From a virus, in the IMG/VR virus record IMGVR_UViG_3300009159_000177, positions 1 to 34,216 of that record: a DNA stretch of 34,216 nt; one strand, given 5' to 3'. Shown here one piece after another: positions 4,167-25,363 of the stretch. The notes below the pieces were generated by a model, which was not told where the DNA came from, made no database searches, and saw only the letters and a list, made by a program, of their open reading frames with translations. A program made the position numbers and the translations under genes. Positions within the stretch are counted from its first letter, which is position 1; the number at the start of each line of letters is the position of its first letter.

Positions 4167-6115
<1,949 letters not shown>

Positions 6116-6137: not shown

Positions 6138-6311
6138 ATGAACAAACAAGAGTTATTTGAAAAAATTGATGGGTTGTACCAAGAATTTGCCACACAGCAT
6201 AACGGAACAACTAAAAAGTCACAAGCCAATGCCCGTAAGTCAATCGGAGAGGTTAAAAAATTAATTACAGAGTATAGAAAAGCCTCAACAGAGGAAGGTA
6301 AAACCAAGTAA
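6138..6311 (+). CDS. Histone H1-like (Hc1-like) small basic protein
   Basis: A 57-aa lysine-rich protein that binds DNA if it follows its family. It begins MNKQELFEKIDGLYQEF and contains KKSQANARKSIGEVKKLI followed by EYRKASTEEGK. This pattern (ARK followed by an amphipathic helix ending in a basic RK-S segment) resembles the Hc1/histone H1-like proteins of Bacteroidota, which compact DNA. It follows groEL by 22 A-rich bases. The stop at 6309-6311 directly borders a GC-rich structured element. Possible roles are compaction of phage DNA or interference with host chromatin. Family assignment is by eye; identity is moderate. Confidence 0.6.
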   Translation: MNKQELFEKIDGLYQEFATQHNGTTKKSQANARKSIGEVKKLITEYRKASTEEGKTK

Positions 6312-6366
6312 CAGCCGGAAGGGGAGAGGGGCGCAAATCCCTCTCACCGAAGGTGACCGCGCAAAT
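6312..6366 (+). ncRNA. GC-rich structured RNA element of unknown class
   Basis: A 55-base stretch with about 64 percent G+C in a genome of roughly one third G+C. GAGAGGG (6324-6330) pairs perfectly with CCCTCTC (6339-6345) around an 8-base loop, GCGCAAAT. A second hairpin, TCACC-GAA-GGTGA (6344-6356), partly overlaps the first 3' arm, so the two may compete. The loop sequence GCGCAAAT recurs exactly at 6359-6366. No T run follows, so it is not an ordinary terminator. It lies between the H1-like gene and a membrane protein gene, ten bases before that ATG. Confidence 0.5.
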
Positions 6367-6376
6367 TTAAAAACAT

Positions 6377-6691
6377 ATGATAACAGTAATAGTAATTTTA
6401 GTAGCAGCATTAGCAATTGCAGGTTTATTAACCTACGCCTTTCACAAAAATGATAATGACCTTCCATTTATTGCTCCAACCTACACCAAAGAGGAACTAG
6501 ACAACATCAAACTAGTAGAGGAATTATACAACAAGGACTTAAGACCAGTTGTAGCCAAGAAAGTCAAGCCAGTAGTAGCCAAAGAACTTGAAGTTATTGA
6601 ACCAGAGTTACTAACAAAGGAAAGCAAACCAGAGTTTCCAATTGACAAGCCAGCAAAGAAAAAAAGAAAATATTATCCTAAAAAGAACTAA
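6377..6691 (+). CDS. Small single-pass membrane protein with basic tail
   Basis: I do not recognise the family. Residues 1-22 (ITVIVILVAALAIAGLLTYAF) form one clear transmembrane helix at the very N terminus. It is followed by a soluble part with a short repeat (RPVVAKKVK, KPVVAKELE), alternating acidic and basic residues, and a lysine-rich end (KPAKKKRKYYPKKN). The topology suggests inner-membrane anchoring with a cytoplasmic charged tail. Its start lies just after the GC-rich structured element, which could control its translation. Confidence 0.65.
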   Translation: MITVIVILVAALAIAGLLTYAFHKNDNDLPFIAPTYTKEELDNIKLVEELYNKDLRPVVAKKVKPVVAKELEVIEPELLTKESKPEFPIDKPAKKKRKYYPKKN

Positions 6692-22359: not shown

Positions 22360-23129
22360 AATTATTAGTATCACTTTCGTCTTACGGGACTAAGAATGTT
22401 AACTACTTAGAAAAAGTAATTGACGAGTTTGTTTCTTATAAGAATTATGATGTTACAGTTAGCTTGCATTGTACAGTGCCTTTAAGTCGTACCGATATAA
22501 AACAAGAGGTATACGATAATCCAAAGAACAATTGCCTTTTTCACAGAGAAGAATTTATTAGAGAAAAAGACAATTACGATTTATTTCTTTTTGCTGAGTA
22601 TGATATACTGATTAAGGAAGCAGTTATAGATACTTACCTTAAGTACGATAAAGTACTACCTATAGGTTACTGTGCAGGATTTTTAAGGTACGAGGATACT
22701 CCTGAAGATATGAAATACTATATAGATATTTGGCCTCACGCTCACGGAGGAGGTTATATTAAATCACACAATACCGTAGTTAATGGTAGAGAGTATTTCG
22801 TTTTAACTAATCCACATCAGGCATGTTATTTACTAACTAAGGAAAAGCTTAACTACGTTATAAATAATACACAGTATAACTTTCACGAGCTTAACGGATT
22901 AGGAATAGAATCAGCAGCATCAACAGTATTTTCAGATTGGAGCTACAGTCCTACTGGTATCATAAAAAAAGTATATCCGAAAAATAAACAAGACTTAGAA
23001 AATTTACAAGTACATCACACCCCGGATTGTCATGTAAATGAACCAGGAGTTAATACAGATCCACTTACATACCGTAATACATCGGCAACATTAGACATTT
23101 TAATAAGAGACGTAAATATACAAAACTAA
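22356..23129 (+). CDS. Putative GT-A glycosyltransferase
   Basis: 257 aa. KLLVSLSSYGTKNVNYLEKV opens as in GT-A proteins. DLFLFAEYDILI gives an acidic E-x-D metal-site candidate near residue 85. A His/Gly-rich segment (WPHAHGGGY) and VLTNPHQACYLLTKEKL follow. No family certain. Its location in an uninterrupted glycan operon supports a transferase. Confidence 0.55.
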   Translation: MKLLVSLSSYGTKNVNYLEKVIDEFVSYKNYDVTVSLHCTVPLSRTDIKQEVYDNPKNNCLFHREEFIREKDNYDLFLFAEYDILIKEAVIDTYLKYDKVLPIGYCAGFLRYEDTPEDMKYYIDIWPHAHGGGYIKSHNTVVNGREYFVLTNPHQACYLLTKEKLNYVINNTQYNFHELNGLGIESAASTVFSDWSYSPTGIIKKVYPKNKQDLENLQVHHTPDCHVNEPGVNTDPLTYRNTSATLDILIRDVNIQN

Positions 23130-23139
23130 ATTTAAAAAA

Positions 23140-23763
23140 ATGACAAAACTAAAAATTAACAAAGAGTTAGTAATTGATAAAAACAAAGTATTAACAGAGA
23201 GTATTGAAAGCCCTGATGGCTGGGTAGATTTTGCAAGAGGAGTACATGGTGAACATTATGGCTTACTTTGTTACCTTTCTACTAAATTTAATAATGCAAC
23301 TATTTTAGACTTAGGAACTTGGGCAGGATGGTCAGCTGTATCGATAGCTCAAAATCCTACCAACAAGATTATAACTTACGATATAGTAGATGAGCTAGGA
23401 AGATCTCAAAACGGTATATGTATTCAGGATAAGTTTAATACTTATTCAAATATAGAACGTAGAATGATTGATGCTAGAACAGAATCTGCTGAAGTAATAA
23501 ACTCAGCAGACTTAATCATATTAGATATCGATCCACATGATGGAATTCAAGAAACTGACTTTACAAATTACCTAGATCAGATAGGTTATGAAGGATTTGT
23601 AGTATGTGATGATGTGCATTTGAATGAAGGAATGAGAAGATGGTGGAGCAGTATTACATTACCTAAGTACGATCTTACAGATGTAGCACATAATAACTCT
23701 CAAGCAGGAACAGGACTTATCTGTTACGGAAAAGTAAAAGCTACAGTAATTGAATTAGAATAA
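23140..23763 (+). CDS. Class I SAM-dependent methyltransferase
   Basis: 207 aa. TILDLGTWAGWSAVSIA is the SAM-binding GxGxxG-like motif, KIITYDIVDELG the post-II acidic residue, and LIILDIDPHDG plus VVCDDVHLNEGMRRWW the remaining catalytic core, resembling the methyltransferase 24 type. Expected to methylate a sugar or carried group. Surrounded by glycosyltransferases. Separate from the FkbM gene and unrelated to it beyond the fold. Confidence 0.75.
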   Translation: MTKLKINKELVIDKNKVLTESIESPDGWVDFARGVHGEHYGLLCYLSTKFNNATILDLGTWAGWSAVSIAQNPTNKIITYDIVDELGRSQNGICIQDKFNTYSNIERRMIDARTESAEVINSADLIILDIDPHDGIQETDFTNYLDQIGYEGFVVCDDVHLNEGMRRWWSSITLPKYDLTDVAHNNSQAGTGLICYGKVKATVIELE

Positions 23764-23773
23764 GAATAAGTAT

Positions 23774-25363
23774 ATGAAAGTACTTTTTATATCAAAAGCA
23801 GACCTACCAGACTATCAAAGTGATATGATCTTTCATGGAGGCAGGTCTGTGCTTGGTTCCGATTTTGTAGACTGTAACAAATTATGGTACATGTACAAGG
23901 AAGATAAGGAACTATACTGGAACGATAGAGTACCGGAGAATGGTAAGAGTTACGGAAGAGGTTTTACTATGTGCGGTAAGCTAACAGAAGATAATATTGA
24001 TAGATCTGATATAGAAAGTAAGATCAAGTCTCACTTCTTTGATAAGATTATTTACGGATCATGTACAAGATGTACAGATTACCTAGATGTAGTCTTATCT
24101 AATTATAGTAAAAAAGATATTATATTTGTAGATGGAGAAGATGATCAGCAAATACGTCAACACTTTTTAGATAAAGGAATTTATTTTAAGAGAGAATTAA
24201 TACCGCAAGATCTCGATAAAGCCAATCCTCTATACTTTGCTATACCCGAAGAGCTTATCCTATCTGAAGTTCCACATAAAGTAAAAGAGTATGCAACTAT
24301 AATTCCTGGAGATTTATCTACATATATCTACGATGATGAAGAAAGTTACTATAAAGGATATCAGGAGTCTTACTTCGGAGTTACATTTAAAAAAGGAGGA
24401 TGGGATTGTTTGAGACATTATGAAATTATAATGAACGGATGCCTTCCATACTTTCCAGACTTAATGCAATGTCCTTCACATACTATGTTAAGCTTTCCTA
24501 AAAAGACAGTACTGGAGTATAGTACGAGGCTAGTAGCTGGAATATTAAAAGAAGAAGAATGTCTAACTTATACTAAGGTATTGTTACAGTATGCAAAAAA
24601 TAACTTAACAACTAAACACCTTTTTAATTATATAATAAAAGAAATACCTACTATGAAAGAAACATATATATTTATCTGCAGCTACAATCGCCTAGAGCCT
24701 CTAAAGATGTTAGTAAAAGCCTTAACACAGAGGGGTTATAAAAATATTGTTGTATTGGATAACGGTACAACCTACCAACCATTATTAGGTTGGTATAAGA
24801 CAGCAGAAGTGAAAGAAGTTTACTTCTGTGCAAACAACTATGGTCCAGAAGCTCTAGACTGTGTACGAAACTTCGAATCAGATTTCCAGCAAAAATACAA
24901 TCACATAGTATTGAACGAATACCACGTCTATACTGACAGCGATGTTGTACCTATTGACGAAGTTCCTCACGATTTTATAGATAATATGGTTGAGATGTGT
25001 AAGCAGTATGGAATACCAAAAATAGGATTGAGTTTAAAAATTGACGACTTACCTGACCATTTCGTATTAAAAAATAAAGTTGTATTACATGAGAGTAGCT
25101 TCTTTGAGCGAGAGTTTATAGAAGATGATAGATGTAGATTATACAAAGCTCCTGTAGATACAACCTTTGCAGTAAATGCCCCTGGGCTTGCTTGTGGGTA
25201 TAGTGATTATGCTTATAGAGCAGCAGGAACTTATTTTGCTAAACATATGCCTTGGTATTTTGATTCTAATAACCTACCTGTAGACGAAATCTACTACCTT
25301 GATCATATAACTGGGGTTCGTCCTCATTGGTCTAATTTACTAAAAGAAGTAATCAATAAATAG
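23774..25363 (+). CDS. Two-domain glycosyltransferase
   Basis: 529 aa. Residues 1-285 look like a GT-B-type or receptor-like half: IIYGSCTRCTDYL, KGGWDCLRHYEIIMNG, CLPYFPDLMQCPS. Residues 295-529 form a GT-A domain: ETYIFICSYNRLEPLKML, IVVLDNGTTY, YTDSDVVPI as the DxD, and a C-terminal YYLDHITGVRPHW. A linker with NYIIKEIPTMK separates them. Two activities on one chain would add consecutive sugars or tie synthesis to acceptor recognition. ATG codons inside the linker could also give a separate shorter product, but no promoter is evident there. Confidence 0.72.
   Translation: MKVLFISKADLPDYQSDMIFHGGRSVLGSDFVDCNKLWYMYKEDKELYWNDRVPENGKSYGRGFTMCGKLTEDNIDRSDIESKIKSHFFDKIIYGSCTRCTDYLDVVLSNYSKKDIIFVDGEDDQQIRQHFLDKGIYFKRELIPQDLDKANPLYFAIPEELILSEVPHKVKEYATIIPGDLSTYIYDDEESYYKGYQESYFGVTFKKGGWDCLRHYEIIMNGCLPYFPDLMQCPSHTMLSFPKKTVLEYSTRLVAGILKEEECLTYTKVLLQYAKNNLTTKHLFNYIIKEIPTMKETYIFICSYNRLEPLKMLVKALTQRGYKNIVVLDNGTTYQPLLGWYKTAEVKEVYFCANNYGPEALDCVRNFESDFQQKYNHIVLNEYHVYTDSDVVPIDEVPHDFIDNMVEMCKQYGIPKIGLSLKIDDLPDHFVLKNKVVLHESSFFEREFIEDDRCRLYKAPVDTTFAVNAPGLACGYSDYAYRAAGTYFAKHMPWYFDSNNLPVDEIYYLDHITGVRPHWSNLLKEVINK

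Follow-up and report, generated by a model that had tools for sequence, protein, structure and literature searches.

The window analysed here is the whole 34,216-nt stretch of viral DNA, within which a GC-rich element of about 60 nt lies directly behind a chaperonin operon. The features of the locus, all on the + strand, are as follows:

4475..6115, +, groEL (from the list of open reading frames), the penultimate gene of the operon ending at the element; the order groES, groEL, small gene, element is the same in Flavobacterium phage immuto
6138..6311, +, H1-like (Hc1-like) gene of 57 aa (from the list of open reading frames), with its stop codon TAA at 6309-6311 adjoining the element
6312..6368, +, the element, about 60 nt (match to covariance model R1 at 6309-6368, 61.2 bits)
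6315..6322, +, P1, a mini-hairpin CC-GGAA-GG (from relatives at the H1 site)
6324..6345, +, P2, a 7-bp hairpin of GAGAGGG (6324-6330), loop GCGCAAAT and CCCTCTC (6339-6345), pairing a purine with a pyrimidine strand (from pairing in the copies)
6345..6355, +, P3, a hairpin CACC-GAA-GGTG with a C-G-closed GAA triloop, extending over 6344-6356 with a T-A pair added (from compensatory changes)
6356..6368, +, conserved unpaired tail ACCGCGCAAATTT, consensus NCACGCGCRAAUU (from alignments)
6377..6691, +, downstream gene of 104 aa with an N-terminal hydrophobic stretch (from the list of open reading frames); its immuto relative is annotated as FliL-like

The H1-like gene scores 22.2 bits against Pfam Hc1 (PF07432), just below the cut-off of 23.5, and the place of the downstream 104-aa gene is taken by other genes or by a terminator in other phages. 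The earlier note had described the letters of the island accurately: 35 of the 55 bases at 6312-6366 are G or C, while the window overall has 32.8% GC, the loop word GCGCAAAT at 6331-6338 recurs at 6359-6366, TCACC (6344-6348), GAA and GGTGA (6352-6356) form a second hairpin beside the 7-bp one, and no T run follows the hairpins in the window sequence. Only six 55-mers in the whole window contain at least 35 G/C, with starts at 6307-6312, making this its GC-richest spot. By itself, without relatives, the island is not far beyond chance: its folding energy alone has a z of -1.5 to -1.8, with 16/200 and 8/200 shuffles folding equally well, and two or more GCGCAAAT words occurred in 2/100 shuffles. 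The element is regarded as real because of comparative evidence, namely its recurrence in relatives, and not because of single-sequence folding. That the region might be part of an unrecognised coding frame, which the earlier note gave as a ground for refutation, is not borne out in the window, where the TAA at 6309-6311 immediately precedes the element and a second TAA, at 6368-6370, closes the frame in which the downstream ATG lies. The upstream reading frame runs into the element in some other phages, and a coding tail (KRGRFS...) was considered on the basis of several such cases, but it was rejected as both frame and length vary.

A relative search with the 57-aa H1-like gene yielded 80 viral loci, at 64 of which the element was recognisable at the same site, and a search with its 3' half identified further copies at other sites in the same phages. 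Covariance model R1 found one to three copies in 24 of 27 phage records, including the cultured Flavobacterium phage immuto, and the element was present in all 20 of the further records to which the model was applied. A second search, in which only GGGGCG, the GAA loop and CNCGCGCRAAT were fixed and the stem letters were left free, recovered many more phages, with the stems CACC/GGTG, CGAC/GTCG, CTCC/GGAG, GCAC/GTGC, CGCC/GGCG and CCAC/GTGG. By our own count over the searches, the element occurs in approximately 117 distinct phage contigs in addition to immuto, with one to three copies per phage in genomes of 150-177 kb; one close relative (L019) has the H1 site without the element. Among 50,697 phage records, a substantial match was found only in immuto isolates, and 395 sampled Bacteroidota genomes gave no copy under stricter filters with no positive control among host genomes. 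Matches from a second pattern scan were mostly attributable to chance, and pattern matches in genome contigs also look like chance, with no model match at the 8 loci scored (L258, L260, L266, L273, L281, L287, L288, L291). No Rfam 15 family reached its curated gathering score at the loci of the window and 15 relatives, tRNAs aside, and the best sub-threshold scores were noise, in agreement with the earlier note, which could name no matching class. These comparisons indicate that the element belongs to a previously uncatalogued conserved structured family of Immutovirus-like phages, acting most likely as RNA, and we class this family as new but of a known kind, the structured cis-acting phage element.

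The earlier note had proposed a structured element and had named compensatory stem changes, to be sought with a covariance model, as its support; such changes were found in relatives and support the base pairing of P3. MAFFT followed by RNAalifold gave no consensus structure because the G-rich strand misaligns, and P3 was therefore tested with a fixed structure. Over 88 distinct copies, 96.8% of cells were paired, 62 cells were double changes (shuffled mean 19), and the covariation score was 0.476, compared to 0.174 for shuffled and at most 0.101 for slid versions. The compensatory pairs comprise CACC/GGTG, CGAC/GTCG, CTCC/GGAG, CGCC/GGCG, GCAC/GTGC, CCAC/GTGG and AACC/GGTT; part of the rows in this set had been retrieved with a fixed CACC/GGTG stem, and the stem-free search agrees. 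The stem also changes at a single site, where L237 has CGAC/GTCG and L011 and L017 have CACC/GGTG with near-identical downstream flanks. The P3 stem measures 4-6 bp, and its GAA loop with the C-G closure is kept across copies, with TTT instead in L069 and L076. Almost all copies form P2, with a median of 9 bp over 90 copies and approximately 23% G-U pairs. Cognate P2 strands show no significantly better pairing than non-cognate ones because a purine tract faces a pyrimidine tract, and the cognate-strand test was not significant overall (p = 0.31; 0.13 without the H1 copies and 0.05 in a chosen subset), so that P2 is a likely but unproven hairpin. P1 (CC-GNNA-GG) is confined to the freshwater group and, within it, to the H1 site, where its loop always reads GNNA (GAGA, GGCA, GGAA, GAAA, GGGA).

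The best-conserved unpaired part is the tail, which is nearly invariant in the alignments. Across the 160 kb of immuto, CACGCGC, CGCGCAAAT and GGGGGCG are confined to its two elements, at 42431-42494 and 64742-64794, and all three are retained in the second immuto copy, which has lost P3; P3 is thus dispensable at some sites. Two further proposals of the earlier note did not hold. Competing hairpins acting as a switch are contradicted by the arrangement of P2 and P3, which stand side by side across relatives and share at most two bases, 6344-6345. A pseudoknot through the loop copy is unsupported because many copies (L015, L102, L198, L203, L217, L224) have no GCG left in the P2 loop while the CACGCGC of the tail stays constant, with no co-change; judged by these alignments, the GCGCAAAT loop copy is coincidental.

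Of 94 copies, 92 point in the direction of the genes around them. Both remaining copies are close to the end of a contig, and the one in L186 is in sense with the methyltransferase gene that precedes it. The upstream stop codon is found between -66 and +70 nt from the element start, most often directly before the element. Where H1 is absent, the element stands directly behind groEL (L185, L197, L222), and where a gene has been appended behind H1, it stands at the end of the longer operon, at 24134 in G033 (H1 at 23058-23222) and at 125312 in G034 (H1 at 124244). The control of the downstream gene suggested in the earlier note conflicts with this tracking of the upstream operon, and also with the marine relatives, in which the next feature is not a gene but a separate intrinsic terminator approximately 26 nt after the element. 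An intrinsic terminator lies within 90 nt downstream of 11 of 94 copies, nearly all at the end of the H1 operon, compared to 7 of 470 control windows. The window clade has no terminator after the element, and the ATG of the next gene (6377) follows only 8 nt on, so transcription must read through. At H1 sites without the element, an intrinsic terminator stands directly behind the H1-like gene in L065 and L082, while other cases have a different hairpin (L027, L028) or almost no gap. A frameshift or readthrough stimulator, which would need a fixed distance from a stop or slippery site and an open frame through the element, was rejected because the spacing between stop codon and element is inconstant, including spacers that differ in length among relatives. 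As a separate observation, five phages (L012, L016, L010, L031, L064) carry a second GC-rich hairpin (CACCCCACCCAAGGAGGGGGGAC and variants) at the H1 site, after the element and before the start codon that follows.

At the other recurrent site, elements bracket a module of a 182-aa protein, which has no Pfam or PHROG match, and/or an FkbM-like methyltransferase (L102, L195, L186, L244, L216, L213). The gene content of this module differs between phages that are approximately 95% identical outside it (L102 versus L244 and L216); for L102 and L244, the identity outside the module is 95.7% and homology ends within a few bases of the elements. One phage (L213) has both module genes with no element between them, and the module differences are therefore read as gene deletions and not as element-mediated swaps. 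In the modules with two elements, the elements are kept while the gene content changes. Two other sequence blocks were observed in these phages. A peptide-like block (PCSGHAFS, APCSAHAYASE, WCSYGGMPSPMAY, YSGLPSPKAYE), possibly another repeated sequence block, appears at the end of small, unrelated ORFs close to the bracketed module in L183, L186, L190, L194, L216, L220, L223, L225 and L234. In L084, L087, L106, L113, L143, L189 and immuto (64.8 kb), the tail is followed by another hairpin, CUCCCAACC...GGUUG-NN-GGAG, behind a gene ending in LTQEQIDSI and before the next gene, where it may extend the leader or the 3' region.

We tentatively favour, as a quite possible reading, a cis-acting RNA element at the 3' end of a transcription unit that is bound by a factor and sets or protects the mRNA 3' end or its processing. 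The transcript would fold into adjacent P2 and P3 hairpins, with P1 as well at the window site, followed by the unpaired tail; an RNA-binding or processing factor of the host or the phage would recognise the GAA loop and the CACGCGCRAAUU tail, and the structure would then set or protect the mRNA 3' end as a block to 3'-5' decay and/or as a processing point. This would separate the handling of the groES-groEL-H1 message, and of a few further modules, from that of the sequence behind them. This reading is suggested by the conservation of the element, the covariation of P3, the placement at the last gene's stop codon and the tracking of the operon end, the sense orientation, and the enrichment of terminators downstream, including those of the marine relatives. 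The terminators that take the place of the element in L065 and L082 and the retention of module-flanking elements point the same way. Against it, a generic stabilising hairpin needs no invariant unpaired tail, the window clade requires read-through, and P3 is lost in the second immuto copy. With one to three copies per 150-177 kb genome, the element is therefore not a general mRNA-end device, and since most genes of these phages lie on one strand, its orientation could also reflect a polarity at the DNA level. A more specific form, which we consider possible but rather doubtful, is a mechanism dedicated to few transcripts, in which a phage or host protein would read the GAA triloop and the CACGCGCRAAUU tail and link the point where the chaperonin operon message ends with processing, antitermination or stability.

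There are several potential alternatives to a transcript-end element. Antitermination of the put or nut kind, with the nascent RNA binding RNA polymerase, by itself or together with a factor, and carrying it past a following terminator or Rho-sensitive junction, would account for the several sites at which an intrinsic terminator follows after approximately 26 nt, and the size, two-hairpin build and low copy number resemble HK022 put (PMC9378689). However, put is located near promoters at operon starts (PMC9378689), while this element is at operon ends, directly before the terminator it would have to disable, and most of its other sites have no terminator within 90 nt; we regard antitermination as unlikely. 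The marine arrangement of element and terminator also matches that of a small RNA carrying a terminator of its own, and a 3'-UTR-derived small RNA could pair with target RNAs through its exposed, nearly invariant CACGCGCRAAUU tail. This is improbable given that the window clade lacks the terminator, that some copies of the element lie within coding sequence, and that the rest of the immuto genome does not contain the complement GCGCGTG, which leaves no antisense partner within that phage.

A leader element, either a riboswitch or a protein-binding operator governing translation of the downstream gene, might be expected from the ORF starts located 13-33 nt past the tail in 37 of 94 copies and from conserved unpaired bases, which are typical of aptamers. 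Yet the downstream genes vary among phages, a terminator or no nearby gene follows at several sites, and the element tracks the end of the upstream operon, so that a leader switch fits poorly and has a very low probability in our estimate; the consistent 5' leader and alternating expression platform of a riboswitch are likewise missing, with no switching partner, alternative pairing or pseudoknot that covaries. It is also possible that the hairpin acts at the DNA level, as a site for recombination or replication or as the boundary of a mobile element or cassette. C-GNA-G is an unusually stable DNA loop, GCGAAGC being a sequence used in published work, and the C-GAA-G loop of the element would then act as a stable DNA mini-hairpin; the breaks in homology within a few bases of the elements where module content changes, and the close relative without the element at its H1 site, are compatible with such a role. 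The near-constant gene-sense orientation and stop-codon placement, the G-U pairs in P2, which suit RNA, the gene deletions indicated by L213, and the lack of copies in the 395 Bacteroidota genomes all weigh against it, and we give it just as little credence. The recognition hairpin of a diversity-generating retroelement, an N4-type hairpin promoter, an integron attC site and an HDV-like ribozyme were weighed and dropped, as there is no variable repeat, the immuto annotation includes no giant RNA polymerase, and the layout is wrong.

These findings describe a well-supported new structured element family in T4-related, chaperonin-encoding phages infecting Flavobacteriia, a group for whose gene regulation nothing was found in the literature searched. 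From its place at the last-gene end of a few operons, the element probably marks or protects the mRNA end, and a specific, putative binding partner is suggested by the conservation of its tail and triloop. If the dedicated mechanism were true, it would represent an RNA-protein regulatory switch of a new class among Bacteroidota phages. The two copies in the cultured Flavobacterium phage immuto make the function open to direct testing.

Among known systems, HK022 put is approximately 70 nt long, has two stem-loops, is present in two copies and acts on both intrinsic and Rho terminators (PMC9378689). Compared by description only, the present element is similarly phage-encoded, about 60-70 nt long (model length 61) and found in very few copies, with two adjacent stem-loops in P2 and P3, of which P2 is likely but unproven; unlike put, which is located near an early promoter upstream of the operon on which it acts, it comes after the final gene of the operon that precedes it. 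The read-through brought about by put involves contact with the beta' zinc-binding domain of RNA polymerase. The T4-type PeSLs, attributed to Arbiol et al. 2010 in Genome Biol Evol (cited in PMC4177764), are reportedly mobile regulatory cassettes in which a stem-loop is joined to an early promoter. The element shares with them short intergenic stem-loops at few sites in large T4-like phages with changing neighbouring gene content. It differs in that no promoter component was identified, in a consensus scan that does not cover flavobacterial or phage promoters, and in its conserved primary sequence (GGGGGCG, GAA loop, CACGCGC tail) and in module changes that look like deletions. Intrinsic terminator hairpins are likewise GC-rich and stand directly behind the last gene of an operon, but the element has no U tract, is accompanied by a separate terminator in several phages and carries a conserved unpaired tail, which sets it outside that class. 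REP/RIP-type palindromes stabilise mRNA 3' ends and number hundreds of copies; the element resembles them as a sense-oriented structured 3' element behind a gene, and is distinguished from them by its one to three copies per phage and its specific conserved tail and triloop.
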